A stretch of 35,542 bases of DNA from Bacillota bacterium. GTDB lineage: Bacteria; Bacillota; JADQBR01. A model generated the notes under the pieces. It was not told the DNA's origin. It worked only from the letters and a program-made list of their open reading frames with translations, and ran no database searches. This document shows positions 10,348 to 35,542 of the stretch, piece after piece (position 1 is the first letter of the stretch; every line of letters starts with the position of its first letter). The position numbers and the translations under genes were made by a program. Location: the NCBI GenBank assembly GCA_016278515.1, contig JADQBR010000127.1, positions 1 through 35,542 of the forward strand, given 5' to 3'.

Positions 10348-10416
10348 GTGAACAAGTCGGCTTTATCCCCATCATTATGGGCCCGCATCTATGATTCGGA
10401 GGTCGCTTATGACTGA
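10348..10416 (+). CDS. Possible 22-codon leader ORF upstream of the dehydratase genes
   Basis: A short frame starting GTG at 10348, eight bases after a strong AAGGAGAGG, and ending TGA at 10414-10416 inside the first codons of the next gene. Its stop overlaps that gene's start region (ATGACTGA), an arrangement typical of translational coupling. The predicted peptide is MNKSALSPSLWARIYDSEVAYD, shown here only to its 22-residue length. I know no family for it. The upstream ATG at 10346 is followed at once by a stop, so GTG is the only workable start. It may be a leader peptide, or the ribosome site may simply be spurious. Confidence 0.33.
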   Translation: MNKSALSPSLWARIYDSEVAYD

Positions 10417-11545: not shown

Positions 11546-11565
11546 GCATAAAGGAGCGATTAAAT

Positions 11566-12789: not shown

Positions 12790-12804
12790 AGGAGGAAATT
12801 ACAT

Positions 12805-16200: not shown

Positions 16201-17400
16201 TTACTTCATATTCCTTGCAATTTCCATTAAAAATTCTTCAGTATTAACGGCCCGCTTATTAGGAAGATTAGACAGTTGAACCAGGTCTTTGGTCATAACT
16301 CCATCTTCTATGGTCTTGATGGATACATCCTCCAGTTTTGAGGAAAATTCCACTAGTTCGTTGATGCCGTCTATTTCGCCTCGCTTCTTTAAAGCGCCGG
16401 TCCAGGCAAACAGAGTAGCCATTGGATTGGTGGAAGTCTCTTCGCCTTTCAGATGCCGGTAATAATGGCGTGTCACAGTACCATGAGCTGCTTCGTATTC
16501 AAAACAGCCATCCGGAGAAACAAGCACAGAGGTCATCATCGCTAAACTGCCAAAAGCTGATGCCACCATATCGGACATTACATCACCATCATAATTTTTT
16601 GCTGCCCACATAATACCGCCTTCTGATCTGACAATACGAGCAACTACGTCATCTATTAGGGTGTAAAAGTACTCAATACCCGCAGCCTCAAATTTGGCTT
16701 TATACTCATTTTCATAGATATCCGCAAAGACATCTTTAAAATGATGGTCATATGTTTTTGAAACAGTATCTTTCGTCGCAAACCAAACATCCTGTTTATT
16801 GTCTACAGCGTATTCAAAACATGCACGAGCAAAACTCGTAATAGATCGATCAGTATTATGCATACCCATGAGTATACCATCGCCTTCAAACTCATGGATA
16901 GTCGCTCGCTCCTCAGTCCCGTCTTCTCCAGTGAATAGCAGTTCAGCTTTGCCCCGGCCTTTTACTTTCATTTCCGCACTCTTATAGATGTCCCCGTAAG
17001 CATGCCTTGCAATAGTTATTGGCTTCTTCCATGAACTCACCAGCGGTTCAATACCTTTTACCATAATAGGGGTTCGAAAAACGGTACCATCTAAAATAGA
17101 ACGGATAGTTCCGTTAGGACTCTTCCACATTTCTTTCAAATTATATTCTTCCACCCTCTGTTGGTTAGGGGTAATAGTTGCGCATTTTACAGCAACACCG
17201 TATTTTTTATTAGCCTCAGCTGCCTCAACCGTAATTTGGTCATCAGTTTCATCTCTTTTTTTAAGAGCCAAGTCGTAATATTCCGTTTTCAGATCAACAT
17301 AAGGTTCCAGCAGCATTTCCTTAATCATCTGCCATACGATACGAGTCATTTCGTCGCCATCCATCTCAACCAGCGGTACTTTCATTGGAATCTTGCTCAT
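16201..17400 (-). CDS. icd: NADP-dependent isocitrate dehydrogenase, dimeric (type II)
   Basis: Cytoplasmic enzyme converting isocitrate to 2-oxoglutarate, CO2 and NADPH. At 399 residues it belongs to the dimeric subfamily II otherwise common in eukaryotes and some bacteria, not the E. coli type. Landmarks are [13 protein letters not shown] at the N-terminus, [19 protein letters not shown], the substrate loop [19 protein letters not shown] near 95-112, [15 protein letters not shown] and the NADP-site region [13 protein letters not shown]. The ATG at 17400 has AGAGGTG upstream. It follows aconitase by 33 bases, so citrate can be carried through to 2-oxoglutarate, feeding glutamate synthesis and NADPH supply. 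Confidence 0.95.
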
Positions 17401-19425: not shown

Positions 19426-20412
19426 TTAACTTGTTACGTTGTGGGAAGTGCCACCCGCAACGGGTAATTCCTTCACACCTTCCTTTTGTCTCTTCTCCTG
19501 TGGCACTGGACTAAAAGGTATTGAGACATCTAAAATTTGCTTCACTTTTTTTATTGTGCGAACTAACAGCTTTCTGCCAAAGTGGTAAATAAAGCTTATG
19601 TCAATTACCAGTGCTGCAATGACATGCACCATAATAATGGTATTCAAAGTACCCACAGACATACTATCCTCCCAGAACCAGCGCATTATACCGGTGACTC
19701 CCAATACCAGCATGGTGCCGAGTACAATGATGTACCACGTCTTCTGTCCAGTATTGTATTCTCCCTGAAAGGGTGCTTCCTGTTTACCAAATAAAGAACG
19801 AAAAGCCTGTTTCCACCAAGTCATATCCTTGCTGCTAATGGACATAACGGCTTTTATAGTGCGATCAAAGTGGTAGCGGTCAAAAAAGAAAAACAATATT
19901 GGGGCCAGTAACCACATTAGGCCTCCAATCCTATGAGCGACACCAGCAATGGTTGTAAAGCTTTGTCCCCATTCAGCTCGGAAGTGATTAAGGCCGATAC
20001 CTGTTCCTGCGGTGAGAAGATAGGCTACCGCCATCCACCAGTGTACCATTTTTTCCGTCATCCTATGTTTGGCTGCCAACAGTTTCAACGGCCTATCCAC
20101 CTGAGGGCATACCTTAATGCACGAATAGCATCTTATACAACTATCCTCCACGATTGTTTCTAAATGCAGGGAAGTTCTATGCATCTGCAGGTCAATCTTA
20201 TCCTCTTTTCTTAATACTACCGGGCAGGCATCTATACAGTTCCCGCAGGACAGGCAGGACTTCTGCCCGACTATGTTTTCGGCTTTTTCCAACAGATGGT
20301 TGGGTGACACCCCGCCGGAGAGCAATCGAAACTTTGCGACGGGTGACCAACCAGTATCCAAAATGCTGGTCACTATTTCTCGATTTTGCGTTAATACATT
20401 TAATCCAGGCAT
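19426..20412 (-). CDS. Membrane anchor with two [4Fe-4S] clusters and a cytochrome b domain
   Basis: A 328-residue protein with an N-terminal dicluster ferredoxin domain (Cys 53, 56, 59, 63 and 92, 95, 98, 102) followed by four membrane helices (about 122-142, 155-178, 230-248, 258-280) of the hydrogenase/formate-dehydrogenase cytochrome b561 type. Heme-ligand candidates are His in KMVHWW (helix 1), AHRIGG (helix 2) and MVHVIAAL ... YHFGRK (helix 4). It would pass electrons between menaquinone or an outer donor and the two subunits encoded just upstream, serving as the quinone module of a fumarate-reductase-like complex. The layout also recalls TcuB/CitB of tricarballylate oxidation, although the domain sequences are not close. 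The stop of the flavoprotein gene lies 12 bases upstream. Confidence 0.8.
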   Translation of the reverse strand: MPGLNVLTQNREIVTSILDTGWSPVAKFRLLSGGVSPNHLLEKAENIVGQKSCLSCGNCIDACPVVLRKEDKIDLQMHRTSLHLETIVEDSCIRCYSCIKVCPQVDRPLKLLAAKHRMTEKMVHWWMAVAYLLTAGTGIGLNHFRAEWGQSFTTIAGVAHRIGGLMWLLAPILFFFFDRYHFDRTIKAVMSISSKDMTWWKQAFRSLFGKQEAPFQGEYNTGQKTWYIIVLGTMLVLGVTGIMRWFWEDSMSVGTLNTIIMVHVIAALVIDISFIYHFGRKLLVRTIKKVKQILDVSIPFSPVPQEKRQKEGVKELPVAGGTSHNVTS

Positions 20413-20424
20413 ATTTCCACCCCT

Positions 20425-22050
20425 TTAACTATAACGTCTTTTTTTCACTTCGTCGCGAATGTAATCAGGTAGCAGCAATGGGGATGCCATTTTGTTTTTT
20501 ATCCCGGCAGCGTCCAACTCTCGGTGGTATTCTCTAACGTGCTGCAATGTTAACTTTCCAACTTTAGCACTACTAATATAGTTAACGGCACTCGTAGCAC
20601 CTCTATGCCCAAAAACAAAAATATCCAGTAGAGAATTACCACCAAGTCGGTTGCGACCCTGAACACCACCGGAACACTCTCCCGCTGCAAACAATCCCGG
20701 TATGCTAGTCCTTGCTTCCGGATCTATTTCAATGCCTCCGTTTTGATAATGCTGTGTGGGGAAGACCATAATAGGCTCTTTCCTAACATCAATCCCGTAT
20801 TCAGTAAATCTATGCACTATGCCGGCAAACATCCTGTCAAGTTTACCCTCATCACCACGGATATTAATTAGCGGCGTGTCAAGCCAAACCCCCTCGCCTC
20901 CGGTTGGGGTCTTAATACCATTACCCCTGTCAATCACTTCTCTTAAAATAGCAGAAGACACTGTGTCCCTAGTTTCCAATTCATTAATAAAGTGCTCTCC
21001 GTTTTTATTAACCAAATGTGCCCCGTTACCACGGCAGGCCTCGGTAATCAATTGACCCAACATCTGTTCTGGCCACATCGCCCCAGTCGGGTGAAATTGG
21101 ATGGCATCCATATGCAGAAGGTTAGCCCCGCCTCGGTAGGCGATAATTAAACCGTCTGCCGTGGCCCCGTAGTGGTTTGTGGTTGGGAAATCATTGGGGT
21201 GTAATCGGCCTATACCGCCAGTAGCTAAAATAACTGATTTAGCTCGCACTACACTAAATTCTTCGGTTTCAAGGTTCAGTAGCACTGCACCAGCGCAGTT
21301 ACCTTGTTCATCCATCAGTAATTCCACTGCAGGACTAAATTCTGACACTGGAACACCTTTGTTATATAACTCGTCCCTTACTACACGCATAAATTCCATA
21401 CCACTTAAATCCTTACAAGAATGGACTCTCTTGCGATGGTGCCCACCTGCAAAGGAAACTACCAAATCACCATTGGGATGTGTATCAAACATACAGCCTA
21501 AGTCTTTTAGCCATTCAACAATTAACGGAGCGTCATTTACCAGCACACTAACCAAATCGCGCTTGTTTTCAAAACGTCCACCACCAATGGTATCTAAGAA
21601 GTGTCTTTCCAAAGAATCATCGGGCTGAGTAGCTGCCGCAATTCCACCTTCAGCCATAATGGTATTAGAATCGCCTATCCTCAACTTGGTTGCCAGCAGT
21701 ACATTAGCGCCTTGCTCATGGGCAATCATGGCCGCACTGACGCCGGCACCGCCACCGCCGATTACCAGTACATCTACATCAAAGTCTACCTGTTCCAAGT
21801 TAACTTTTTCGGGATCAAGGTAACTTTTTGCTTCCAAAAGATCTACCAGTTTATTAGTCAGCTTCTGGCCTTTGTTGGGTCCGATGCTTATTTGCCTAAT
21901 ACTGTCCTTTCGGTAATCAGGATGACACTCTTTCAAAAGCTTTTCCCTGCCTTCAAAGGAAAGGCGTGGAACATCCTGTCCAAGCCGAGAGGATCGTGTT
22001 TGTTCCAGTTTCTTGATTGTTTCCTGCATACTTACCGGATAACCTGACAT
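20425..22050 (-). CDS. Fumarate reductase / succinate dehydrogenase-like flavoprotein (non-covalent FAD predicted)
   Basis: FAD-binding reductase/dehydrogenase of 541 residues from the ATG at 22050, chosen for AGGGGGGG about nine bases upstream. An 80-residue N-terminal extension of unknown role precedes the Rossmann motif VIGGGGAGVSAA (about 97-108). Active-site elements of the succinate/fumarate family are present: QFHPTGAMWPEQ, ITEACRGNGAHL with the proton-shuttling Arg, QHYQNGGI and GGNSLLDIFVFG. Where SdhA/FrdA have Ser-His-Thr for covalent FAD, this protein has Ser-Asn-Thr (Asn129), so FAD should be non-covalent. The usual C-terminal helical domain is shortened. It is flanked by its Fe-S partner and a cytochrome b anchor and leads into aconitase. 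Substrate could be fumarate, cis-aconitate/tricarballylate or similar. Confidence 0.86.
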   Translation of the reverse strand: MSGYPVSMQETIKKLEQTRSSRLGQDVPRLSFEGREKLLKECHPDYRKDSIRQISIGPNKGQKLTNKLVDLLEAKSYLDPEKVNLEQVDFDVDVLVIGGGGAGVSAAMIAHEQGANVLLATKLRIGDSNTIMAEGGIAAATQPDDSLERHFLDTIGGGRFENKRDLVSVLVNDAPLIVEWLKDLGCMFDTHPNGDLVVSFAGGHHRKRVHSCKDLSGMEFMRVVRDELYNKGVPVSEFSPAVELLMDEQGNCAGAVLLNLETEEFSVVRAKSVILATGGIGRLHPNDFPTTNHYGATADGLIIAYRGGANLLHMDAIQFHPTGAMWPEQMLGQLITEACRGNGAHLVNKNGEHFINELETRDTVSSAILREVIDRGNGIKTPTGGEGVWLDTPLINIRGDEGKLDRMFAGIVHRFTEYGIDVRKEPIMVFPTQHYQNGGIEIDPEARTSIPGLFAAGECSGGVQGRNRLGGNSLLDIFVFGHRGATSAVNYISSAKVGKLTLQHVREYHRELDAAGIKNKMASPLLLPDYIRDEVKKRRYS

Positions 22051-22066
22051 AATATCATATCCCCCC

Positions 22067-22747
22067 CTATATCTTTTCAAACTGCCGTTGATCATATAGC
22101 TTTTTCAATTCTTCCGCACTCTTTTCAGCCAGTGCTTTAACCGCTAAATCGTATTGCCCGTTTCTTATATCTCGGTTACGATTTATTAAATGCTCAGGTT
22201 TTGGCCTTACCACCTTGGAAAAATAGCGGCGCACAAAAAGAGCGATGTTGTAAGGTACCAATTCGCCGGTACAACGGGACGCACATAACCCGCACATAAT
22301 ACAATCAAAGGACATTTCAGCCGTCTGTTCCCAATCACCCCTGAGAGCAGCAGCCACATAGTCTATGGGACGTAATTTTTGCGGACATGCTTTCACACAC
22401 GCCCCGCAACCGACGCATTTGGCAATCTCCGGAAAAACCTCAAGAATTGCTTTGGCTGGGTTCTCAATTTTGTTCAAATCATAAGCTGCCTTGGGATTAG
22501 GGTAAGAGGGTATCTGTGTCAAATACATAGACGACGTTATAGTCGTCTGACAGGCCAAACCAACCTGTAATTTATAGTCCCCAGGCATACGATATACTGT
22601 GCTGCATGCCCCGCAAAATCCACCGCGGCACCCGCATCCCCGTATGTACTTGTACCCAATCCACTCCATTGCCTTCATTATAGTTAGTCCTTCAGGGACA
22701 TCATATTTTTTCCCCATTACATAAATCGGCACTAACTGTTCATTCAT
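22067..22747 (-). CDS. Iron-sulfur subunit with [2Fe-2S] and two [4Fe-4S] clusters
   Basis: A 226-residue electron-transfer protein. The N-terminal 80 residues form a plant-type ferredoxin domain (Cys40, 45, 48, 66, with an extra Cys38 in GCGCRGGFCGAC); two [4Fe-4S] motifs follow at Cys 111/114/117/121 and 149/152/155/159 (CIMCGLCASRCT). The classical SdhB/FrdB has one [2Fe-2S], one [4Fe-4S] and one [3Fe-4S]; here the third site has four cysteines and should hold a full [4Fe-4S]. It begins the operon with GGGAGGAAGG before the ATG. It would link the flavoprotein (next gene) to the membrane cytochrome b subunit or to soluble donors. Confidence 0.85.
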   Translation of the reverse strand: MNEQLVPIYVMGKKYDVPEGLTIMKAMEWIGYKYIRGCGCRGGFCGACSTVYRMPGDYKLQVGLACQTTITSSMYLTQIPSYPNPKAAYDLNKIENPAKAILEVFPEIAKCVGCGACVKACPQKLRPIDYVAAALRGDWEQTAEMSFDCIMCGLCASRCTGELVPYNIALFVRRYFSKVVRPKPEHLINRNRDIRNGQYDLAVKALAEKSAEELKKLYDQRQFEKI

Positions 22748-24217: not shown

Positions 24218-25018
24218 TTACATAGGTTGCCAAGGGATTCGCTTACGCGGCATACATATGATTTCCCTTAAACCAATATCAAAAAATTGAAGTGAATGGG
24301 CTGGCTGAATAACCATTGCAGTATCGAAACCCCTTATGGTACCGCCTAATGCAATTACTTCCTTATCAATCGGAATGGCCCCTGCATCCGCACCCACAAT
24401 AGTTACCTCAACACACACCTTTATCCCTTCTCCAAACAGTTTGAGGGTTTGTCTAACTATTAATGTACTAGACATGCCTCCCCACTCTCGGTATATTGCT
24501 CTGTCGACACCCGAGAAAAAATAGGGGGCAAAAATTACTGGTACATCTGCTTTACGCAATTTTTTTTCATATTCCGGCTCCAAAGTGTGCTCTCCCGGTT
24601 TAAACCTACCATACATACAGGGAATTACAACAATATTAAAATCTGGTCCAAAAAAATCTATGGCCTCCAGCGCTGATTTCCCCGTAGTAGTGGGTAATAC
24701 AACATCTCGAATATTTAAAGATAAAGCACGTTCTTTTGCTAATTCGAGTACCTTTGCAGTATTTTTTTTGCCAGCCTTTTCAAAAAAAACAATCGGTTTT
24801 TCAGTATATTGCAACCCCTTCGGAAGGTTCTCTGAAACCTTTTCTTCAGTTTTTACAATTGCGGTCATTGGACATACCGTCATGCATTTTCCGCAATTAC
24901 TACATTTAGTTTCGTCAATGTAGAAAAAATGTTCGCCTTCGTGTATTACGTTATTTCCAGAACAAATATCCTGACACTTTCCACACGATATACAGTTACT
25001 TCCCCTAATAACATACAT
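24218..25018 (-). CDS. Ferredoxin fused to a pyruvate-kinase C-terminal-like domain (COG1751-like)
   Basis: A 266-residue fusion. Residues 1-55 form a two-cluster [4Fe-4S] ferredoxin (Cys 9, 12, 15, 19 and 39, 42, 45, 49). Residues about 73-258 resemble the stand-alone pyruvate-kinase alpha/beta-domain-like family (COG1751) of archaea and anaerobes: FEKAGKKNTAKVLELAKERA, VLPTTTGKSALEAIDFFG, KLFGEGIKVCVEVTIVGADA, EVIALGGTIRGFDTAMVIQPAHS. The ATG at 25018 follows AGGAGG by six bases; an upstream TTG would overlap that site. The function of this domain is unknown. The fusion suggests a redox-linked or ferredoxin-fed step in the pathway encoded around it. It lies 95 bases after a 2-hydroxyacid dehydrogenase gene. 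Confidence 0.75.
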   Translation of the reverse strand: MYVIRGSNCISCGKCQDICSGNNVIHEGEHFFYIDETKCSNCGKCMTVCPMTAIVKTEEKVSENLPKGLQYTEKPIVFFEKAGKKNTAKVLELAKERALSLNIRDVVLPTTTGKSALEAIDFFGPDFNIVVIPCMYGRFKPGEHTLEPEYEKKLRKADVPVIFAPYFFSGVDRAIYREWGGMSSTLIVRQTLKLFGEGIKVCVEVTIVGADAGAIPIDKEVIALGGTIRGFDTAMVIQPAHSLQFFDIGLREIICMPRKRIPWQPM

Positions 25019-25113
25019 TTTCATCCTCCTTGACAATGAAAAATATTTTACATAATAAGGCTAAAAGAAATGGTCTTTCCATTATCGATGGGAATACAGC
25101 CAAATAATGGCAA

Positions 25114-26097
25114 TTAAATTTCATTTACTACAGTTTCGTTAACAATATTTCGAGGTAATTTTCCTGAAAACAAATCTATCATAGCTTGTGCAGTTTCTGT
25201 CGATAACATTTCTTCTGCATCATCAGAGTAAAATGCAGTATGCCCTGTTAAAATCACATTTTCGAAATCCATTAAAGGGTTATCAATTGTTGGCTCCTTT
25301 GCTGTGACATCCAATGCAGCTCCTGCTATTTCGCCATCTTCTAATACCTTTATTAATGCCTCTTCGTCCACAAGATTCCCCCTTGACGAATTGACTAAAT
25401 ACGCAGTTTTCTTCATCAAAGCCAATTCCTTAGAAGAAATAAGCGGTTTGTCGCTTCCAGGAACGTGTAACACAACAAAATCTGATGTTGTAAGCAACTG
25501 GTTAAAAGAAACCGGTTTCGCATTGTAAGACTGTATAGCATCTGGTTTGATAAAACTATCATATACAACAGCGTCCATTCCCAATGCTGTTACGTATTTC
25601 CAGGTGTTTCTACCTATCCGGCCAAACCCAACTATCCCTGCGGTTAATTTTGACAGTTTTCGAGTACCACTCATTAGGCTTCTTCTTTTTTTCCATTGAT
25701 TACTTCTTATTGTTTTATTCATCAAAACTATTTTTCTTGCTAATACTAACATTAATGAAACTGTATGCTCAGCAACTTCTCTACTTGAAGCATCGGGAAC
25801 GTTAGTGACTAATACGCCATTTTTTGTTGCAACACTAACATCGATATTATCAACCCCTATACCATATCGACTGATAATGCGACATCTTTCAAAGGAGCCA
25901 AGCACTCTTTCTGTAAACGGCTCGCGCGACCCGCAAATAATACCATCAACCTGCTTTGCTGCATTAATTAATTCTTCTTCATCTGTTATGGCCTTCTTCA
26001 TCACTTTAAAACCAGCATTATTTAGGATTTCTTCTTCTACTGAATTGACCTCCGATGTTTGTCGAGTTATTAAAATAACTTTATCGTCTACGCTCAT
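25114..26097 (-). CDS. D-isomer-specific 2-hydroxyacid dehydrogenase (SerA-like)
   Basis: NAD-dependent oxidoreductase interconverting a 2-hydroxyacid and a 2-oxoacid, 327 residues from the ATG at 26097 (GGGGAGG upstream). The NAD fold carries GIVGFGRIGRNTW and VVYD; catalytic residues are Arg in LVNSSRGNLVDEEAL, Glu in DVTAKEP and His in LTGHTAFYS. It lacks the ACT/regulatory domain of biosynthetic SerA. (S)-sulfolactate dehydrogenase SlcC belongs to this same family and also sits beside TctABC-type transporters in sulfolactate degraders, which makes it one candidate role, alongside malate-, glycerate- or other hydroxyacid oxidation. It lies directly after tctA, so it probably acts on the imported compound or its product. 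Confidence 0.86.
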   Translation of the reverse strand: MSVDDKVILITRQTSEVNSVEEEILNNAGFKVMKKAITDEEELINAAKQVDGIICGSREPFTERVLGSFERCRIISRYGIGVDNIDVSVATKNGVLVTNVPDASSREVAEHTVSLMLVLARKIVLMNKTIRSNQWKKRRSLMSGTRKLSKLTAGIVGFGRIGRNTWKYVTALGMDAVVYDSFIKPDAIQSYNAKPVSFNQLLTTSDFVVLHVPGSDKPLISSKELALMKKTAYLVNSSRGNLVDEEALIKVLEDGEIAGAALDVTAKEPTIDNPLMDFENVILTGHTAFYSDDAEEMLSTETAQAMIDLFSGKLPRNIVNETVVNEI

Positions 26098-26208
26098 AAT
26101 AATCCTCCCCACTTTATTCGACGGCTTCGTCAACTGTTAACATTTGATAATGCTGTTGGAAAACTGCCTGCTGTACAACAAAAAATAGAGTAAAAAATAT
26201 CAAACCAG

Positions 26209-27720
26209 TTACATTACCTGACTTTCTTCGTTTCTTGTTCTGCGTGACCTAATCGTAGGCAGCACTAACATTATTAAAGCAAGAAGTAAACAAAATGAGG
26301 CAATCGGAGTAAATAACTCGCCAACGCCACCTATCTTTAGTGCCAATCGTAAGTTTGATTCTAACCCCCCACCCAATACAAGTCCTAAAACTGTCGGTGC
26401 CACAGGGAAGTCAAAGTGTTTCATTAAGTAGCCAATAATTCCAAATAAAGCTACAATGTAAATATCCGTCAATGAATTTCTTAAAAAATAGGTCCCGGAA
26501 ACTGCCAGTACAAAAACTAATCCAGCAATAATAGGTTTTGCAATGTACATTAATTTTTCAAACAACGGAATAGACAATTGGAAAACAATAAAAGCAGCTA
26601 GCCCTCCGATAATATAAGATGCCGTTAGGTAGGATATCAAACCGGGCTGTTCAACAATTAATAACGGGCCTGGTAAAATATCATGCATCATCAAAGCAGC
26701 TAGCATTACGGCAGTAGTACTTGAACCCGGTATACCAAGAGACAACATAGGCACCAATGCCCCTGCTGATGCAGCATTATTTGCTGACTCACTGGCAGCC
26801 ACTCCTTCAATTGCACCCTTACCGAATTTTTCCGGCGTCTTAGACCTTTGCCTTGCTAAGTTCCACGACATCATACCGGCAACCGTTGCTCCAGCGCCTG
26901 GAATGCTACCAACTACAAACCCTACAATGCTCGAAATAATGTTTGTAGGTAACATCTTTGCACGTTCCAACAAAGTAGGACCATTTGCCTTAGTGTTTAG
27001 GGCTTTTTCTTCCTCCACTTTGTCTCCTTCAAACATTTTCCCTTTTTGAAGCAGCAAAATTGCCTCAGATATCCCAAACAATCCAATCATGGCAGGAACA
27101 AATGGAATACCTGAATACAGACCTATTTTTCCAAATGTATACCTGGGTACAGTAGTTAGGGGGTCTATCCCTATCGTAGTAATGGCAACACCAAAAGCTA
27201 AAGCAATTATACTCCGCCATATCGATCCTTTGCTTAATCCGGCAACACAGGCTAAGCCTAAAACCATCAGAGCAAAAGTTTCAGCGGGTCCAAAGGCCAA
27301 AGCAGCCTTTCCCACAACATTCGCTAAGAAATAAAACATAACAGCTCCGAGTATACATCCAACAAATGAGGAAAAATTTGAAACAAAAAGTGCCTCCTTA
27401 GCCTTACCTTTTACTGCTAAAGGATAACCATCTATGGCTGTTATAAATGCAGGGGGCGTACCTGGGGTATTTACCAGTATTGCCGGAATAGCTCCGCCAA
27501 AGTTCGCCCCAAAATAAATGCCAGCCAACATTACCATTGACACATCCGTTGGCATTAAAAACGTCAAAGGCAATAGCAATGCAACGGCGGTAGGCGAACC
27601 AAAAGCAGGTAAAAAACCAACAAAAACTCCTCCAAGAGCACCCAATAAGACTGCAATAATCATCTGAACATTTGAAGCCATGTATAAAACATTGCTGAAA
27701 AACGATACATCATTTCCCAA
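26209..27720 (-). CDS. tctA: Tripartite tricarboxylate transporter large permease TctA
   Basis: A 503-residue membrane protein with about 11-12 helices forming the translocation channel of a TTT-family secondary transporter. Family motifs are ALGGVFVGFLPAFGSPTAVALLLP near the N-terminus, YFGANFGGAIPAILVNTPGTP, GSIPGAGATVAGMMSWNLAR and SNNAASAGALVPMLSLGIPGS. The start is TTG at 27720 with GGAGGTG upstream; the first in-frame ATG is 12 codons later without a comparable site. It works with TctB (next upstream, 34-base gap) and periplasmic-type TctC. Transported acid unknown; TTT systems take citrate, tartrate, terephthalate, sulfolactate and many others. Confidence 0.95.
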   Translation of the reverse strand: MGNDVSFFSNVLYMASNVQMIIAVLLGALGGVFVGFLPAFGSPTAVALLLPLTFLMPTDVSMVMLAGIYFGANFGGAIPAILVNTPGTPPAFITAIDGYPLAVKGKAKEALFVSNFSSFVGCILGAVMFYFLANVVGKAALAFGPAETFALMVLGLACVAGLSKGSIWRSIIALAFGVAITTIGIDPLTTVPRYTFGKIGLYSGIPFVPAMIGLFGISEAILLLQKGKMFEGDKVEEEKALNTKANGPTLLERAKMLPTNIISSIVGFVVGSIPGAGATVAGMMSWNLARQRSKTPEKFGKGAIEGVAASESANNAASAGALVPMLSLGIPGSSTTAVMLAALMMHDILPGPLLIVEQPGLISYLTASYIIGGLAAFIVFQLSIPLFEKLMYIAKPIIAGLVFVLAVSGTYFLRNSLTDIYIVALFGIIGYLMKHFDFPVAPTVLGLVLGGGLESNLRLALKIGGVGELFTPIASFCLLLALIMLVLPTIRSRRTRNEESQVM

Positions 27721-27754
27721 ACCTTACACCTCCAAGGTAAAGTAGTACTCTATA

Positions 27755-28180
27755 TTATTGGATCCAAACGTAAGGAAGATGAAGCCACCAACCAAATACT
27801 AAATATATAGAAACGGTTGTTATGATGGGTATAAGAATTAAAAGAAATTTCCTGCGATAACCTCCAGCTGTTAATACTGCTGCAAAAGCAAGTCCACTAC
27901 CGATAGCGATACCTAAAAATTCCATTAAAAACACGACAAGAACAGTTAATGCGACTAGAAACGCACTCCATTTCAGTCCTTGAATTAATGTCTGCTTTCC
28001 ATTAACGGGAATCACCCCTTCGACAATGCACATAACCCCAGCTATAAGCGCGATTATACCTATTATAACCGGAAATAGACCTGGCCCGGGATTTCCTTCG
28101 GTCCAGAGTGACCATTTCAGAGCTCCGATAGTATACGCTAAACTCACGATGACAATTAACAATCCTACAATCCTATTCAA
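27755..28180 (-). CDS. tctB: Tripartite tricarboxylate transporter small permease TctB
   Basis: A 141-residue membrane protein with four helices, the small subunit of the TTT transporter. The GPGLFPVIIGIIALIAGV motif near residue 32 is the family signature. The TTG start at 28180 has GAGGAGGG upstream. It heads a run of minus-strand genes (tctB, tctA, hydroxyacid dehydrogenase, ferredoxin fusion, AbrB halves). Upstream lies a 584-base gap with a long hairpin, separating it from the M24 hydrolase and tctC, so the transporter genes are split over two transcription units or joined by a long internal spacer. Confidence 0.9.
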   Translation of the reverse strand: MNRIVGLLIVIVSLAYTIGALKWSLWTEGNPGPGLFPVIIGIIALIAGVMCIVEGVIPVNGKQTLIQGLKWSAFLVALTVLVVFLMEFLGIAIGSGLAFAAVLTAGGYRRKFLLILIPIITTVSIYLVFGWWLHLPYVWIQ

Positions 28181-28258
28181 AAGTGTCCCTCCTCACGTAA
28201 AAATATGGTTTAGAACGCAAAACCACAAAACATACAATTTCTACTTCCCACATTAAAC

Positions 28259-28333
28259 CTCAGGCCCTTTCCCGATACTATCAGTCATGCTCTTAAACTG
28301 TGAAGTCGCATCTAGAAGGAAACCGGGCCTGAG
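28259..28333 (-). repeat. Long imperfect hairpin upstream of tctB
   Basis: Outer arms CTCAGGCCC (28259-28267) and GGGCCTGAG (28325-28333) pair perfectly. Inside them TTTCC pairs with GGAAA after a 2-base bulge, and shorter matches (GAT/ATC, ACT/AGT, CAGT/ACTG) continue towards a terminal loop of about 11 bases. There is no T-run on either side, so it is not a simple terminator. It sits about 79 bases before the tctB start, in what would be its 5' leader, and could be a regulatory or processing structure. Confidence 0.5.
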
Positions 28334-28407
28334 TCTTTTAAACTATCGAAAACTCTTTCAACCTTTTAATTTTGAATTGAACCTTTCATGATATTCTTAG
28401 ATTACAA

Positions 28408-28413
28408 ATTATA
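28408..28413 (-). promoter_or_regulatory. Possible -10 box for tctBA
   Basis: A perfect TATAAT on the minus strand, about 230 bases before tctB. No matching -35 hexamer lies at 16-18 bases, so this is a weak call. If used, the transcript would contain the 28259-28333 hairpin. Confidence 0.22.
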
Positions 28414-28764
28414 CGATGATTGACTAAATATTATCTATACAAGCGCCATTACTAGAAATGCTACCAGTCACAAAACTGCATCTAAGTGAGAAAAACAGAA
28501 GATTAGCAATCCTTTAATCTACTCTGGGAACATCACGAAAAGTCCATTTCCTCATTGTCTTTAGTAAAAAGGAGGCGACCTCGCTAAATCTGTTTAATAT
28601 ATTCCCGAGCCCAAAGATCTCTATTTTGAACATCCATATAGTTTACTAGTATTTGCCTGTTAAATTAAATAAGTAATTAGGGCCACCCCAATGTAGTGGT
28701 TGTGTTTTTATTTGTATTCTTAAACCTCCGATGGCCCTTAATATGACAAACTGTTTTGGTGCTG

Positions 28765-29979
28765 TTATCTATTTCTGTATTGCGCAGTTCTACCGGTTGT
28801 CTTGTCAAGAGGATGTGTCTCTTTTAGCAGTCGCGCCTCAAATGGATACGTAGTCGTTATTTCTGGTTCATCGTCAATACGTGTATTGTTCTCTAGGCGG
28901 AAGCCTCCAGTTTCAGGTGTACCACCATAAGGCTCCGTATTGATAACCATATTCTTTCGTAAAGTTATCGGGTTTTTATGTGATACTCTACTAAAGAACG
29001 GTGGTTCCCAAGGGTTAACCCCTGCTCCATGTCCCAGGGAATCCCTTACGTAAGGTTCAGCAGCAGCTACTACATCCGCATTTGTGTTGCCAGGTTTTGC
29101 CGTCCCGCACGCCTCGAACAAGTGCCAGTAAACGTCTTGATGTAAGTCAATTTGCTCTTGTGTGGGTAAGACATCTCCGCAAATCCAAGTCCTTGTGAAA
29201 TCGCCCCAATATCCGTTATAACAACCGCCGATATCAATGATTACTAAGTCTCCGTGTCTCATAATCCTATCAGATGTAAATCTCCTATAAGGATGGGTAT
29301 ATGGGCCAGAAGCAACTATATTAGCACATTGAGTCCATTCACTGCCCATTGCAGTCATCGTACGCCAAGCTTCTGAAAGCACTTCGCACTCCCGAACTCC
29401 CGGTTTCAATACCCTTAATGCAGCATCCATACCAGCCTCAGTAATAGCAGTTGCTGCTCTAAGACACTCTATCTCATCCTCTGTCTTTATCATTTTTGCT
29501 TCTAAAAGAGTCTCGTAACCACTTACAAATTCCGTCTCTGGAAATTGTTCTTTGAAGATTTCTGCTATTATTGGGGTGTAAATATCTACACCTACCCGTT
29601 CACCTTTTAAATCACCCAAAAGTCCTTTTATTCTATCGCAAAAATCTACTATTCCCGCTGGTTCTCTAAAGTTTGCCCTCGGTTGAAACTGGTCTTTTGT
29701 CATCCACGGCATGGAACTAGCGCGTTTTATATCATGAGTAAATACTATTGGTTCCCCATCTTTCGGCAGTACTGTTGTTACGTTGCCCACGATAAATGCA
29801 GGACCTAAATGATGTCTAAAGCTAGTAAGGTAACGAGCATCCTCGGTTCTTAAAACCAATAACGCTGCAAGTCCTGATTCCTTAAGCGCCTTCTTTGCTT
29901 TATCTAACCTTTCACGACGAAGTCTGTCAAAATTAATTCGTTGTTCCCAATCGACTCCCATTAAACCAAATTGTGACAT
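28765..29979 (-). CDS. M24-family metallohydrolase (creatinase / Xaa-Pro peptidase-like)
   Basis: A 404-residue protein of the pita-bread fold family. An N-terminal creatinase-like domain (about 10-155) precedes the catalytic domain, where all five metal ligands are visible: Asp249 and Asp260 (DIGGCYNGYWGDFTRTW), His317 (SLGHGAG), Glu349 (INTEPYGG) and Glu363 (FRLENNTRI). The ATG at 29979 follows GGGAGG by seven bases. The family includes prolidases, creatinase, ectoine hydrolase and the DMSP lyase DddP, so the name peptidase is not safe. Lying between tctC and tctB, it more probably acts on the imported small molecule than on peptides. It lacks a signal peptide and should be cytoplasmic. Confidence 0.85.
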   Translation of the reverse strand: MSQFGLMGVDWEQRINFDRLRRERLDKAKKALKESGLAALLVLRTEDARYLTSFRHHLGPAFIVGNVTTVLPKDGEPIVFTHDIKRASSMPWMTKDQFQPRANFREPAGIVDFCDRIKGLLGDLKGERVGVDIYTPIIAEIFKEQFPETEFVSGYETLLEAKMIKTEDEIECLRAATAITEAGMDAALRVLKPGVRECEVLSEAWRTMTAMGSEWTQCANIVASGPYTHPYRRFTSDRIMRHGDLVIIDIGGCYNGYWGDFTRTWICGDVLPTQEQIDLHQDVYWHLFEACGTAKPGNTNADVVAAAEPYVRDSLGHGAGVNPWEPPFFSRVSHKNPITLRKNMVINTEPYGGTPETGGFRLENNTRIDDEPEITTTYPFEARLLKETHPLDKTTGRTAQYRNR

Positions 29980-30045
29980 GATGTGGCCTCCCAAATTAAA
30001 TTATGGCATTTTGTAATGCTAGATGTCTTATTGCAACTCATACTA

Positions 30046-31095
30046 CTATTCCGGTAACATACCCATATCCCCGTATACTTGCTTATAGTGATCCTGTCTT
30101 TCCTTAACTACCTCGGCAAATTCATTTGGCCCTTTGTAATCTATAATAGAATCTCTGTTTTCAAGGTAGCTTTGCCACTCATCAGTATTTGCGATCTTCT
30201 CAAACAAGTCTGCATAGTAGTCAATTGCCTCTTGTGGAATGTCTTTTGGTGCAGCTATACCACGAACGTGATAATAGTTAACATCTACGCCCAGTTCTTT
30301 CAATGTTGGCAAATCTGGAAAAGCATCGACTCTATCTTTATAGGTAGTAACTATCGGACGCAACAGTCCTGCTTCCACGTTCTTAAGAATTGAACCAGGA
30401 CCACGACCACCAAAATCTACATGACCGCCAATAAGGGCTTTAAGGGCATCCCCTCCACCTTCAAAAGGTACAACATTAAACTTAACTCCTTTAGCTTGCT
30501 CAATACCCTGTATAATCTCTAGTTCCGCAGATGTCGGCCCAGCTATTCCCCAACTAATTTTACCCGGGTTAGCTTTGGCCGCTGCTATTACATCATCGAA
30601 AGTCTTATATGGAGAATTAGCCGGTACTGCCAACACTGCAGTATCTGCAGCAAACGATGCCAGGGGCGTAAAATCTTTAGTTACATCTAATTTTACGTCT
30701 GCACTAAGAAGCGGAGTAAGCCACCACATACCACTAATAGGAACTAAACTGTAAGGATCTCCTACCTTTTGTGCAACTTCAGTGGAGCCAATCGCACCTC
30801 CTGCGCCAGGCTTATTAACTAAAGAAAACGGTTTGTCAATGAATCCTTTTTCTTCAGCAATTTGAGCCAATTTCCGAGCTATTTGATCGTTACCACCGCC
30901 TGTAGCAAAAGGAATAGTAATTTCTATCTGTCTTTCCGGTACCCATGCAGTTTCCTCTTGTGCTGGTTCCTGAGATTGCGCTTCCTCTTTAGTTCCCTGA
31001 TTATCCTGTGTTCCTTCTTGAACGCCGCAACCCATTACGGCAACCACAAGTAATGCCAAAACAATAAGAAATACACCAATTTTTACTTTTTTCAT
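30046..31095 (-). CDS. tctC: Tripartite tricarboxylate transporter substrate-binding lipoprotein TctC
   Basis: A 349-residue extracytoplasmic binding protein that hands substrate to TctBA. The ATG at 31095 is chosen because GGAGG lies ahead of it and it begins a classical lipoprotein signal: a Lys-rich start, a hydrophobic core and the lipobox AVMGC with Cys23 as the lipid-bearing residue. A Gln/Glu-rich linker (about 24-50) leads into the Bug/TctC fold with ITIPFATGGGNDQIARKLA and NKPGAGGAIGSTEVAQ, the loop that binds a carboxylate through water. As a Gram-positive-type lipoprotein it would be tethered to the outer membrane face. The M24 gene begins 66 bases after its stop. Confidence 0.93.
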   Translation of the reverse strand: MKKVKIGVFLIVLALLVVAVMGCGVQEGTQDNQGTKEEAQSQEPAQEETAWVPERQIEITIPFATGGGNDQIARKLAQIAEEKGFIDKPFSLVNKPGAGGAIGSTEVAQKVGDPYSLVPISGMWWLTPLLSADVKLDVTKDFTPLASFAADTAVLAVPANSPYKTFDDVIAAAKANPGKISWGIAGPTSAELEIIQGIEQAKGVKFNVVPFEGGGDALKALIGGHVDFGGRGPGSILKNVEAGLLRPIVTTYKDRVDAFPDLPTLKELGVDVNYYHVRGIAAPKDIPQEAIDYYADLFEKIANTDEWQSYLENRDSIIDYKGPNEFAEVVKERQDHYKQVYGDMGMLPE

Positions 31096-31274
31096 TTTTA
31101 GAAAACCTCCATTTTTTTTCTCGTTTTGGTCTGTCTTCAGAAAAGTTCTCCTTTTACTAATATCCTCTATCTTCACCCCCTTACTAAAACTAATTTACTT
31201 TATGAACCAGAGTATCCATAACTTTTAAAATATTCCACGCTAACTCTGTACTAGTAAGTCAACAAAAATTAGTT

Positions 31275-32498
31275 CTATTGTTTTGCTTGGACAGTTTCAA
31301 CAATTTGCTTAAATTCTGAGTCCGTTAGTTCTCTCTTTACTTCTAGCGCCATTTCCTTTATACGCCGCAGAACTTCACCAACCAACGCATCGTCCAAAGA
31401 CATACCTAACTCTTCGAGTTTCATAGTAACTGAGGCCTTTCCACTCTTTTTACCAATTGAAAACCTCAATTCTCTGCCTATAAATTTTGGCAGCAAAGGA
31501 AAGAGAACGGTCGGATTTTTTTTGACAATATCCATGCCCATCCCCGTTTCTTTTGTGAAAGCAACTTTACCGACAATTGGTTGGTTAAAACCCGTTTCTA
31601 TACCGGAGCACTCTGCAACCAACTTACTAACTGCGGCTATCTTTTCGAAATTAACTGGTAAATTTATACCATACAGCGTCCTTAATGTTACCATTATTTG
31701 TTCTAACGGAGCATTTCCGCATCTTGAACCTAAACCATTTATACACCCATGTACGACCTCAGCCCCTGCTTCCACTGCAGCCGTGGTACTTGCCACAGCA
31801 AGTCCAAAGTCATTATGTGTGTGCACCTCGATCGGTACAGATGGAATCCAAGTTTTAATGTTCTCAATCAAGTACTTAATTGATAATGGAATCGCCGATC
31901 CAGTTGTATCCACTACTGCCAAAGAATCCGGCGAAGTTTTTTCCCATGTACCCACAATCAGCTTTTTCAAAAAGTCAAGTTTTGCTCGCGTTGCATCCAT
32001 GGGGAAGAGCACAGTATAAAGCCCTAGTTCCTTAGCCAATTGCACACTTTCAATCGTTAACTTACATATATCATCTTCTGACCACTTGGTAAACTGGTGC
32101 AAGAGGCGCGGATAACCCGACGGTACTTCCAACACTATTCCCCATGCTCCTAGTTCCTTTGCCCTTTTAATGTCATCTTCTCTGGCGCGGCAAAACACCA
32201 TGATTTTAGCATTGAGGCCTAAACTTGCAATTGTTCTTATCGCATCTGCATCCTCTTCAGAAACCGCTGGCATTCCTGCTTCTATTCTGTCAACACCTAA
32301 TTCATCCAAGGCCTTCGCGATGGCTATCTTGTCATCCCGTGAAAATACAACGCCCGGGCTTTGTTCACCGTCCCTTAATGTTGCGTCATGTGTCATAATT
32401 CTTTGCGGAATATTCATGTTGTCTTTGACTTTAGCCGCAAAATTGTTTTCACTTATCCACCAGTTATCTGCTTTACCGTCTAGCATGTTACTTTTCAA
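31275..32498 (-). CDS. Homocitrate / isopropylmalate / citramalate synthase-like DRE-TIM enzyme
   Basis: A 407-residue HMGL-like enzyme that joins or cleaves an acyl-CoA and a 2-oxoacid. The DRE-TIM core is intact: HDATLRDGEQSPGV for metal and substrate, EAGMPAVSEEDA, the metal His pair in EVHTHNDFGLAVAST and NGLGSRCGNAPLEQ. It lacks the C-terminal allosteric domain of LeuA, so it is closer to NifV, archaeal AksA/homocitrate synthase or Re-citrate synthase. The start is TTG at 32498 with GGGGGG upstream; an ATG four codons on is possible. In this cluster, beside an ADP-forming CoA ligase, it may cleave or build an intermediate of an imported acid. Re-citrate synthase is a real alternative, given the nearby aconitase and isocitrate dehydrogenase. 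Confidence 0.82.
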   Translation of the reverse strand: MKSNMLDGKADNWWISENNFAAKVKDNMNIPQRIMTHDATLRDGEQSPGVVFSRDDKIAIAKALDELGVDRIEAGMPAVSEEDADAIRTIASLGLNAKIMVFCRAREDDIKRAKELGAWGIVLEVPSGYPRLLHQFTKWSEDDICKLTIESVQLAKELGLYTVLFPMDATRAKLDFLKKLIVGTWEKTSPDSLAVVDTTGSAIPLSIKYLIENIKTWIPSVPIEVHTHNDFGLAVASTTAAVEAGAEVVHGCINGLGSRCGNAPLEQIMVTLRTLYGINLPVNFEKIAAVSKLVAECSGIETGFNQPIVGKVAFTKETGMGMDIVKKNPTVLFPLLPKFIGRELRFSIGKKSGKASVTMKLEELGMSLDDALVGEVLRRIKEMALEVKRELTDSEFKQIVETVQAKQ

Positions 32499-32540
32499 AG
32501 ATATCCCCCCACAATTTAAATTTGTTAATTCAATTCGTGC

Positions 32541-33551
32541 TCATTTTTTTGGATTGATTACCACTCTAAACATATTCTTGTCTTTATTCGAAATAGCACT
32601 AAACGCCTCAGCAATATCTGATAAATTAAAAGTATGACTTATTAGCGGGGCAACTGATATGCTTTCATTTGCCAGTATGTTAACAGCAGAATCGTAATCA
32701 CCTCTTCCTCCTTTTGAGCCAACTATGGATATTTCTTTACTGTACAGTTTAGTAGCATCAAACTTTTCGATAGGCGATTTGTAAATACTGTAAACAACGA
32801 CGGTTCCTCCGGGTTTCACTACTTCTACTGCATTCTTAAATGCGGAAGTCGCCCCTGACGCTTCTACAACGACATCTGGTTCCATTGCGGCTAAAGATGC
32901 GATGTCCAAATCCGACCTACCAATAACTTCATCGGCCCCCAATTCAACAGCCGCCCTCAATCTAGATGCACGACTCCCTCCGACTACCACCACTTTATCT
33001 GCACCATAGGTCTTGAGTACTTGCAAAATGATAAGAGCAGAATGACCAGAGCCAAATACTATTGCCGATTGGCCAGCAGTAATTTTCGCTTTTCTTACCG
33101 CGTGACTCGCACATGCTATAGGAATAAATGATTGAGCATTATCCATATCAACATTTCCAGGCAATTTGTATACCACTTGTCTGGGAACATAAACAAATTC
33201 AGCCATTGCACCATTCAATTTACGCCCCATCGATTGTCTATCAGTGCAGAAAATTGGTTTACCAGTCCGGCAGGCTCTACATTTGCCACATGCCCAACTC
33301 CCACCTGCAGTTACCCTATCACCGGGCTTTAGGTCCTTAACTTCCTCTCCGACTTCGTCTACCACTCCTGCAAATTCATGACCGAGAACTATTGGTATAT
33401 TGCTTTCGTAAACTCCCTCATATACGAGAACATCCGTACCGCAAATCCCAACTTTCTCAACACGAATTTTTACCTCTTCTGCGGTCCTTGTCCTATCCGG
33501 AATTTCAACTACTTTTAAATCTTTACGTCCATACAAAACGGCAGCCCGCAT
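32541..33551 (-). CDS. Zinc-dependent medium-chain alcohol/polyol dehydrogenase
   Basis: A 336-residue NAD(P)-dependent oxidoreductase of the threonine/sorbitol dehydrogenase type. Catalytic zinc ligands are in GICGTD and LGHEFAGVV; the structural zinc site has four cysteines in ACGKCRACRTGKPIFC. The cofactor fold carries AIVFGSGHSALIILQVLK, in which the usual GxGxxG reads GSGHSA. It oxidises a secondary alcohol to a ketone or the reverse. It lies 42 bases upstream of the DRE-TIM enzyme gene and 26 bases after the ComA-like gene, so it very probably supplies or uses a 2-oxo or 3-oxo acid in the same pathway. Substrate unknown. Confidence 0.86.
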   Translation of the reverse strand: MRAAVLYGRKDLKVVEIPDRTRTAEEVKIRVEKVGICGTDVLVYEGVYESNIPIVLGHEFAGVVDEVGEEVKDLKPGDRVTAGGSWACGKCRACRTGKPIFCTDRQSMGRKLNGAMAEFVYVPRQVVYKLPGNVDMDNAQSFIPIACASHAVRKAKITAGQSAIVFGSGHSALIILQVLKTYGADKVVVVGGSRASRLRAAVELGADEVIGRSDLDIASLAAMEPDVVVEASGATSAFKNAVEVVKPGGTVVVYSIYKSPIEKFDATKLYSKEISIVGSKGGRGDYDSAVNILANESISVAPLISHTFNLSDIAEAFSAISNKDKNMFRVVINPKK

Positions 33552-33577
33552 CTATTTATCCACTCCCTTTGCATATG

Positions 33578-34375
33578 TTAATCTTTTTTTCCAATTTCCT
33601 TTAGCCATGTGTATCCTATCTCTCTGCCAAACGATCTTCGTATTCCTTCTAAATAACCTATCGCATGCGGATGTATATTCGGTCCTAGATTTACCTTGTT
33701 GCCATATCGTTTGATAAACCACGCTTGTTCTTCCAAAGTCTCTGCTTCGAATGTAAGATATTCCAACCCAACTTTTTCAACTATTTCATCAATTGTATCC
33801 AAACTGCTATCGTCCTCAGATTTTTCAAAGTATAAATCTATTTCGCCCTTCTCGATAATAATTAGATTAACTCCGGCACTAATCAAAACATTTACATCAT
33901 CTAATATTTCACTAGCTTGCAGTGGATGGTCAGGATATTTGCTTCCAACTTCCACGATCACCTTGAATCCATGATTAACTGCTAATTCCACCAATCTGAG
34001 TTTCTCTTCTAATGTATAAGAAATGATATTGTCGGAAACTTCTAACGTGTTAAATCCCATATCCTTTAGGACTTTTAAAGTCTCTACCGTCTTCCCAGTA
34101 GCTATTGCAGTTTCAAAAACTATTCCTCCGGGGAAAACATCTATTCCGCGATCTCTATAAAGCCTAACTTTTTTAACCAGCGATTGATTGTCTTGATGAT
34201 AAAGTACCGTGAAATGCAGCATTTTCATGTAATCTATGTACTCTCTAAAATCGACAACCAAATCTGATGCTGCGTTGTACCCTATTCCAAAATCCCTTAA
34301 AAGAGTTAAACCACTTTTTCTTGGTTTTCCTTCGCGTTCAGGCAAATTCAGAAAATCAAATGTTTTTTTACTCAT
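33578..34375 (-). CDS. Divergent phosphosulfolactate synthase (ComA) family protein
   Basis: A 265-residue TIM-barrel protein of the PF02679 family, whose known member ComA adds sulfite to phosphoenolpyruvate. Shared parts are LPEREGKPRKSGLTLLRDFGI, VFPGGIVFETA, GFNTLEVSDNIISYTLEEK, FKVIVEVGSKYPDH and NKVNLGPNI. Several motifs I remember as conserved in ComA are altered: the FVKFGWGTS region reads YMKMLHFTV, the EGRESG loop reads EKGEID and the APQKxQQ stretch reads AETLEEQ. A different substrate is therefore likely. The ATG at 34375 overlaps the ADP-forming CoA ligase beta gene by 8 bases, tying the two steps together. No ComB or ComDE partner is in the window. Confidence 0.75.
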   Translation of the reverse strand: MSKKTFDFLNLPEREGKPRKSGLTLLRDFGIGYNAASDLVVDFREYIDYMKMLHFTVLYHQDNQSLVKKVRLYRDRGIDVFPGGIVFETAIATGKTVETLKVLKDMGFNTLEVSDNIISYTLEEKLRLVELAVNHGFKVIVEVGSKYPDHPLQASEILDDVNVLISAGVNLIIIEKGEIDLYFEKSEDDSSLDTIDEIVEKVGLEYLTFEAETLEEQAWFIKRYGNKVNLGPNIHPHAIGYLEGIRRSFGREIGYTWLKEIGKKD

Positions 34376-35054
34376 ACTTTTTTACCTCCAATTCATCTTC
34401 ATCTTGATAAAAGAATTTAAAATCTAAAATTTGAACACCTTTGCCTTCCTCTAAAACTACAACCGGGTTAAAATCTGCCTCAACGAGCCATTCTTGTTCG
34501 TATGCGAATCGAGATATTTTCACAACACTATCGCAAAGCGCCTTTACATCACAAACAGGGTAAGCACGGTAACCGAAAAGTATTCTCTTCCCACGTATCT
34601 CCTTTAACATTTCCAAGACATCTTCATAGCTAACTGGGCACAAGCGAAATGTTATATCGTGCAGTAGTTCAACCATAATGCCTCCAAGCCCTAATGTAAT
34701 AACAGGTCCAAAAACAGGATCCTTTTTTATTCCAATAACCATTTCAACTCCGCCAGGGATTATTTGTTGGATGTAACAACCTATTATACTTGCGTCAGGG
34801 CATTTCTTCGTCACAGCTTCCCACATATTTCGAACTGTATCTGATAATTGTTCTCGCCCCACCCCTACTTTTACTCCCCCTACATCAGTCTTATGCAGTA
34901 TATCGGGTGATGAAATCTTTACTGCCACTGGAAACTCTAGTTTCTCAGTCACCATTGGCATATCTCCTGTTTGCTCAATCAATACACCGATTGGGTAATT
35001 TAAACCGTATTTATCTAGTATTCTTGTAGCTTCATCTTCTCGTAGAACTTTCAA
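34368..35054 (-). CDS. ADP-forming acyl-CoA synthetase, beta (ATP-grasp) subunit
   Basis: A 228-residue ATP-grasp_5 domain subunit of an NDP-forming acyl-CoA synthetase, converting acyl-CoA, ADP and phosphate into acid, CoA and ATP. Diagnostic motifs are FPVAVKISSPDILHKTDVGGV, with the histidine that relays phosphate, and DPVFGPVITLGLGGIMVELL. It overlaps the ComA-like gene downstream by 8 bases and the alpha-subunit gene upstream by 4 bases (ATGA type), so subunits are made together. In fermenting archaea and anaerobic bacteria this enzyme yields ATP by substrate-level phosphorylation, which suggests the cluster is catabolic and energy-conserving. The acyl group is unknown. Confidence 0.9.
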   Translation of the reverse strand: MKVLREDEATRILDKYGLNYPIGVLIEQTGDMPMVTEKLEFPVAVKISSPDILHKTDVGGVKVGVGREQLSDTVRNMWEAVTKKCPDASIIGCYIQQIIPGGVEMVIGIKKDPVFGPVITLGLGGIMVELLHDITFRLCPVSYEDVLEMLKEIRGKRILFGYRAYPVCDVKALCDSVVKISRFAYEQEWLVEADFNPVVVLEEGKGVQILDFKFFYQDEDELEVKKYE

Positions 35055-35542
35055 TGTTTCACACCTCCTTTAGACATTTCTTTATTGACGTATTCAGTGT
35101 AAGAATAAATGTTATCTAGCATCGGTCCAACATTTACTAGATTTGAAGCTACAGGTATACCGGCTGCTATACTTTGTTTAACCAATTCATTGCGGAAAGT
35201 TGTCATTTCAGTGCTTCCGCTCGAAACTAAGACTAGTACTTTTGCAGCTGTCGAATCCGCTTCATCAAAAGCCTGTATTATGTTTTGAAGAAACTTCTCA
35301 GGTTCAGGATAATTATAAAAGGACTCCATATTGAGATGTAATAGGATAACCCCAAATAGGTCGCGCGGAATTTCTTCAATAAGATCCTTAATTATTTTAC
35401 CGCGGGTCTTGTAGAGACCATTGGCAGGGATGTCAATGGGGTTTTTCAAACTACTCCCCGGTGGCAATCCAATAGCATTTGAAATTTCGATAAGTTGTAT
35501 AATTAAGTGCCCAAACACAGATAAAAAATGACTCACAGCTAA
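35051..35542 (-). CDS. ADP-forming acyl-CoA synthetase, alpha subunit (5' end outside window)
   Basis: C-terminal part of the alpha subunit. The frame is open to the window edge, so the GTG at 35536 is not a convincing start; the CoA-binding Rossmann domain and the phospho-histidine should lie beyond the end. The visible part matches the second succinyl-CoA-ligase-like domain: SSLKNPIDIPAN corresponds to the family's GNPVD motif, FGVILLHLN to the strand that follows, and VLVLVSSGSTEMTT and AAGIPVASNLVNV to the later core. The stop at 35051 overlaps the start of the beta gene by 4 bases. Separate alpha and beta genes are the arrangement of archaeal acetyl-CoA synthetases; many bacteria fuse them. 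Confidence 0.78.
   Translation of the reverse strand, partial: LAVSHFLSVFGHLIIQLIEISNAIGLPPGSSLKNPIDIPANGLYKTRGKIIKDLIEEIPRDLFGVILLHLNMESFYNYPEPEKFLQNIIQAFDEADSTAAKVLVLVSSGSTEMTTFRNELVKQSIAAGIPVASNLVNVGPMLDNIYSYTEYVNKEMSKGGVKH

Follow-up and report, generated by a model that had tools for sequence, protein, structure and literature searches.

A gene island split by a mobile element in a Bacillota genome, related to PrpF-linked tricarboxylate clusters and carrying a divergent ComA-like protein

The described systems closest to the gene island reported here are the tricarballylate (TcuA) and PrpF-type aconitate isomerase clusters, which share with it PrpF, a tricarboxylate-type transporter, aconitase and a dehydrogenase-type flavoprotein. 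Two enzyme families with described members also enter the comparison: ComA, whose chemistry is the addition of sulfite to an unsaturated acid, and the DRE-TIM family of isopropylmalate synthase (IPMS), homocitrate synthase (HCS) and Re-citrate synthase. The island lies on the minus strand of a 35,542-base stretch of DNA from a Bacillota bacterium (the window), which is an entire contig of its assembly (C108 of genome G000) and ends in the terminus of a mobile element. A preliminary description of the window had read this gene run as a carboxylate-use cluster fitting no described pathway, a view that the conservation of its modules supports, although the full set is seen only once. Our leading reading, to which we give a little less than even weight, is that the island serves the utilization of an aconitate-type tricarboxylate through CoA-dependent cleavage, with an ADP-forming ligase replacing citrate lyase.

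The right terminus of the element, at which the window ends (Table 1), is found at eight contig ends of the genome and the opposite, left terminus at nine, and each of the eight right ends has its own left partner, with which it shares a target sequence of 14-17 bp (C108-C24, C156-C32, C99-C47, C69-C164, C62-C71, C50-C74, C68-C11 and C130-C19). A mobile element with target duplications of roughly 14-15 bp thus breaks up the assembly at eight contig-end pairs. The window's partner is C24, because the two ends have the target duplication GAAATTTCAAATGCT in common, and when a single copy of that duplication is kept, the alpha-subunit frame of an ADP-forming acyl-CoA synthetase (ACD) reads through the junction without a stop (498 codons, counted from the start chosen). 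C24 encodes its CoA_binding and Succ_CoA_lig domains and the window its C-terminal portion; the alpha gene is therefore interrupted by the element. The insertion within this gene divides the island, parting a PrpF-family gene, which lies on C24 upstream of the insertion with a DUF3870 gene 584 bp further upstream, from the remaining genes. Where the preliminary description had both ligase subunits in the window, only the end of the alpha gene accompanies an intact beta gene, and the case for the ATP-yielding ligase it proposed is weakened by the interruption. With the element between PrpF and the other genes and the alpha gene broken, the pathway may not operate as a single unit in this genome; ligase paralogues on C59, C166 and C105 might substitute for the broken subunit. 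More generally, a contig end at a mobile element can hide half an operon.

The PrpF-family protein on C24 matches the solved 3-methylitaconate isomerase (PDB 3g7k) at 1e-117 and PrpF methylaconitate isomerase at 1e-75, and the presence upstream of a protein closest to the former is a first reason for reading the island in terms of tricarboxylates. PrpF of this kind occurs in 20 of 299 genomes of the phylum, the window's own included, and about nine of the loci read are apparent nicotinate clusters, so named from sequence. The 49-55% identity of the C24 protein to PrpF of these clusters would fit a nicotinate-type (2,3-dimethylmalate) fermentation in which it is a true methylitaconate isomerase, but in the PrpF tree it appears to fall outside the clade of nicotinate-cluster PrpF, and neither the window nor the C24 end has the genes that accompany PrpF there (mutase, DmdAB-like, lyase-like, dehydrogenase); we regard this reading as very unlikely.

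Related genomes give further grounds for the tricarboxylate reading. One is the recurrence in G046 and G224 of a core of PrpF, TctABC, an aconitase 61-62% identical to the window's and AbrB, which in G046 also includes the citrate lyase genes CitE and CitF, the counterparts in role of the DRE-TIM enzyme and the ADP-forming ligase proposed here. Another is the company kept by the nearest relatives of FrdBAC: in G035, PrpF, TctA/TctC and MmgE/PrpD lie beside FrdB/FrdA/FrdC that are 58/71/49% identical to the window's, and in G076, of the same family, FrdB/FrdA/FrdC at 63/73/50% share a contig with PrpF and PrpD. LeuA-like and succinyl-CoA-synthetase-type genes stand together in G208 and, joined by a hydroxyacid dehydrogenase, in G111. 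The contig scan for relatives used one peptide pattern, and closer relatives that differ there may escape it. Searches of plasmids returned ComA-like proteins of 35% identity at best, no DRE-TIM match at 1e-60 and no close M24 relative.

The ComA-like protein of the island has the ComA fold (AlphaFold model with a predicted local distance difference test score, pLDDT, of 84 and a predicted template-modelling score, pTM, of 0.83; Foldseek matches to 1qwg at 1.5e-19 and also to 1u83) and retains K17, R19, D28, K51, E88, E112, S114, E142, K146, E175, E178, E210, N233, E243 and R246 of the described ComA proteins (PF02679; PDB 1qwg, 1u83), but departs from them in K29->F, T85->I, G116->N, D164->L, R177->G and a missing Gly after position 178. 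Against the phosphosulfolactate synthase equivalog TIGR03849 it scores 152 bits, short of the cut-off of 280, whereas the genome's own ComA on C93 reaches 350 and a same-phylum copy (L010) 355; a PrpF-linked, proteobacterial branch scores 126-141. The preliminary description had already remarked on the altered motifs; by the test used, the protein does not qualify as a phosphosulfolactate synthase. Unlike ComA it has no ComB neighbor, and the genome already holds a true ComA with a ComB-family gene (L198, 7359-8976, on C93), through which it probably makes sulfolactate besides carrying the divergent protein.

In the trees the window protein joins the proteobacterial branch with a support of 99/94 (large tree) and 97/91 (small tree), and its grouping with canonical Bacillota ComA is rejected (approximately unbiased test, p = 0.006), although the long branch of the window protein weakens this test as it does the trees. 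The window protein and the proteobacterial branch have in common an aromatic residue at 29 (canonical K), I85 (T), N116 (G), G-R at 250-251 and Y255, and both lack R177 and the Gly after 178. K29, T85, G116 and R177 are near-invariant in canonical ComA and lost in the PrpF-linked branch too; in the model these positions lie just after strand ends, that is, on the active-site face of the TIM barrel, and the branch may have lost the residues that bind the phosphate of phosphoenolpyruvate (PEP). Beside the proteobacterial genes stand PrpF and MmgE/PrpD (L034, L041, L053, L055 and L092; PrpF also in L038) and TcuA-type dehydrogenases, the two tested scoring 584 (L092) and 599 (L044) bits against a cut-off of 369, and this joint occurrence is another reason for the tricarboxylate reading. 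The whole PrpF-linked branch is probably something other than phosphosulfolactate synthase and tied to tricarboxylate metabolism. Its members carry the public annotation "phosphosulfolactate synthase", so that sulfonate pathways may be over-predicted while the function of the enzyme awaits assignment; in the open-access literature, with subscription papers mostly outside it, we found no paper joining that name to PrpF or tricarballylate. It is conceivable, if doubtful, that the PrpF/TcuA-linked branch has a new function common to Proteobacteria and the Bacillota island, as an enolate-type enzyme working on itaconate- or aconitate-type acids and not on PEP, for example in the addition or removal of sulfite (a new C-S lyase or synthase).

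Since the genome has DsrAB, the substrate may be a sulfonated one. In a sulfonate degradation of this kind the ComA-like protein would act as a C-S lyase on a di- or tricarboxylate sulfonate, eliminating sulfite and leaving an unsaturated acid for PrpF to isomerize, and DsrAB would respire the sulfite. The sulfite chemistry of ComA and the retention of most of its invariant residues fit such a role, but the elimination would run opposite to the known ComA direction; the DsrAB genes themselves lie on a separate contig, and neither a sulfite exporter nor any further known sulfonate gene was recognized in the cluster. An SsuA-family-like binding protein is encoded near the Hyphomicrobium ComA-like gene, but most proteobacterial copies stand beside TcuA-like genes and not sulfonate transporters, and we judge this alternative quite unlikely. 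The DsrA and DsrB genes are at 119998-121786 of C153 and point to a possible capacity for sulfite or sulfate reduction.

The preliminary suggestion of sulfolactate use fared worse. Catabolism through SlcC, ComC and SuyAB with SlcHFG would account for the tripartite tricarboxylate transporter (TTT) and for the SerA-like hydroxyacid dehydrogenase, a member of the family that includes SlcC, the window enzyme being placed only in the broader family. The defining enzymes SuyAB and ComC, however, are absent from the cluster genes and the C24 end, in line with the earlier remark that no sulfo-lyase is seen; the SuyAB-like or altronate-dehydratase-like genes elsewhere in the genome have neighbors of their own; and PrpF, the aconitase and the ComA-like branch would be left unexplained, which makes the known form of this pathway very improbable here. 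Those genes form two SAF + GD_AH pairs near TRAP-type transporter genes (L196, 8981-10470, and L197, 8784-10150), the second apparently frameshifted.

The DRE-TIM protein falls below every NCBIfam cut-off. Like IPMS, HCS and Re-citrate synthase it retains the metal-site motifs DATLRDGEQ and HTHND and the NGLG motif; unlike IPMS and HCS, it and all eight relatives aligned lack the two conserved His of FVHESGIHQDG and have an N-terminal W[WFY]xSxxN-type motif. The neighbors of its relatives, namely succinyl-CoA-synthetase-type genes (L172, L177), a hydroxyacid dehydrogenase (L172, L178) and TctABC with MmgE/PrpD (L175), again favor the tricarboxylate reading. One member of the subfamily (L179), beside genes that read as fumarase-like, may be a Re-citrate synthase, in which case the loss of the C-terminal His is weaker as evidence against CoA chemistry. 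Since annotation is known to mislabel Re-citrate synthases as homocitrate or isopropylmalate synthases (PMC12016533), an activity of this type is a live option for the window enzyme as well. A related uncharacterized cluster in G111 (L172, 7782-13283, on contig C48) comprises creatininase, cupin, hydroxyacid dehydrogenase, DRE-TIM (52%) and succinyl-CoA-synthetase-type genes, and in L175-L177 the DRE-TIM gene likewise has a creatininase-like gene with it. Like the ComA-like branch, the subfamily is without an assigned function.

On these grounds we infer a substrate, reaction directions and a part for every gene as follows. TctCBA would import a tricarboxylate of the aconitate or itaconate type, either unsaturated or substituted, the PrpF-family isomerase would move its double bond, and aconitase and isocitrate dehydrogenase would feed the unsubstituted product into the tricarboxylic acid (TCA) route. 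The FrdBAC-like complex, whose place in the island is suggestive only, could interconvert saturated and unsaturated forms; the ComA-fold enzyme would carry out enolate chemistry, an addition or elimination at C=C, on a substrate without the phosphate of PEP; and the two dehydrogenases and the M24 hydrolase may deal with a substituent. The DRE-TIM enzyme, probably Re-citrate-synthase-like, would use CoA to split (or form) a carbon bond of the citrate type, and the ADP-forming ligase would trade the acyl-CoA for ATP.

Several points weigh against this proposal. Splitting a citrate-type acid by a retro-Claisen reaction runs energetically uphill, so that the ligase might instead activate an acid, and the missing His residues leave the CoA-dependent Claisen chemistry of the DRE-TIM subfamily not assured. 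The link between FrdBAC and PrpF clusters comes from only two genomes of one family, the nearest ComA-like protein in the sampled phylum is 36% identical, and the M24 metallohydrolase has no close relative among 249 phylum genomes. Conservation of the neighborhood, which the preliminary description had made a touchstone, holds for separate modules, but no second genome was found with the whole set in one place. Finally, the gaps in the run are mostly below 105 bp, with exceptions of 584 bp (M24-TctB) and 333 bp (before FrdB) that may divide it into several transcripts.

These two gaps would also fit several unrelated units that only adjoin: one operon of ACD, ComA-like, medium-chain dehydrogenase, DRE-TIM, TctC and M24 genes, one unit of TctBA with the hydroxyacid dehydrogenase, and a third, TCA-type, of Frd, Acn and Icd. 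Frd homologues at 50-58% identity are mostly in other contexts, and the second, pyruvate-kinase-C-like domain of the ferredoxin fusion is common in the phylum, where it is mostly found by itself as a protein of about 190 residues. Such a division would, however, leave TctC in the first unit and TctB and TctA in the second, when one transporter needs all three and the window encodes a complete one, each component above its cut-off; the same module pairings, moreover, recur in other families of the phylum, and we consider the partition unlikely.

The layout itself agrees with the preliminary description in the places and families of TctC, TctB, TctA, M24, both dehydrogenases, DRE-TIM, ComA-like protein, ferredoxin fusion and ATP-grasp beta subunit. 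The overlaps at 34368-34375 and 35051-35054 that were said to tie the central genes together are real and most gaps measure 26-98 bp, but the M24-TctB gap, in which no convincing gene was found, breaks the series; nor does the run end at 24218, for the same strand goes on to 15105. Promoter and terminator scans stayed at chance level, a sigma-54 pattern scan gave no clear excess above chance, and an Rfam search had no matches. Farther along the window, at 10391-13575, two proteins that read as 2-hydroxyacyl-CoA-dehydratase subunits are followed by an activator-like ATPase.

Table 1. Features of the island and of the adjoining contig end, in window coordinates
Feature	Position	Strand	Basis or remark
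AbrB-family membrane protein	15105..16145	-	PF05145
NADP-dependent isocitrate dehydrogenase	16201..17400	-	NF006156, 667 bits vs cut-off 335
Aconitate hydratase	17434..19368	-	NF005558, 951 bits vs cut-off 612
Fumarate-reductase-like complex (FrdC 19426-20412, FrdA 20425-22095, FrdB 22067-22747)	19426..22747	-	sequence relatives
Two half-length AbrB-type membrane proteins	23081-23587, 23587-24114	-	PF05145 for 23081-23587
Ferredoxin domain fused to pyruvate-kinase-C-like domain	24218..25036	-	family search
D-2-hydroxyacid dehydrogenase, SerA-like	25114..26133	-	family searches
TctA	26209..27720	-	PF01970
TctB	27755..28180	-	PF07331
M24 metallohydrolase	28765..29994	-	putative metal ligands D, D, H, E, E from the sequence
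TctC substrate-binding protein	30046..31176	-	PF03401
DRE-TIM enzyme (IPMS/HCS/Re-citrate-synthase-like)	31275..32498	-	subfamily without the conserved C-terminal-domain His
Zinc-dependent medium-chain dehydrogenase, threonine-dehydrogenase-like	32541..33551	-	family searches
ComA-like protein, uncharacterized branch	33578..34375	-	PF02679
ACD beta subunit, ATP-grasp_5, intact	34368..35054	-	PF13549, 200 bits
ACD alpha subunit, C-terminal 146 codons including stop, interrupted	35051..35488	-	N-terminal part on C24 at ~94735-95793
15-bp target duplication, GAAATTTCAAATGCT (minus strand)	35474..35488		second copy at end of C24
Mobile-element terminus, contig end, breaks ACD alpha gene	35489..35542		same 54 bases at 7 other contig ends

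Set beside its described counterparts, the ligase resembles ADP-forming acetyl-CoA synthetase in having separate alpha (CoA_binding, Succ_CoA_lig) and beta (ATP-grasp_5) genes with a 4-bp overlap and differs in the interruption of alpha by the mobile element, just as PrpF matches 3-methylitaconate Delta-isomerase (Mii/PrpF) closely and yet stands outside any nicotinate cluster. The window flavoprotein of the Frd complex scores as TfrA/SdhA-like, below cut-off, with no TcuA among the matches listed. Compared with the TcuA/PrpF-type clusters, the island is without TcuA in the window and has the FrdBAC-like complex instead, and it adds ComA-like, DRE-TIM, ACD and M24 genes; it is a new variant of the PrpF-linked tricarboxylate clusters, and the ComA-like branch is its most interesting part.

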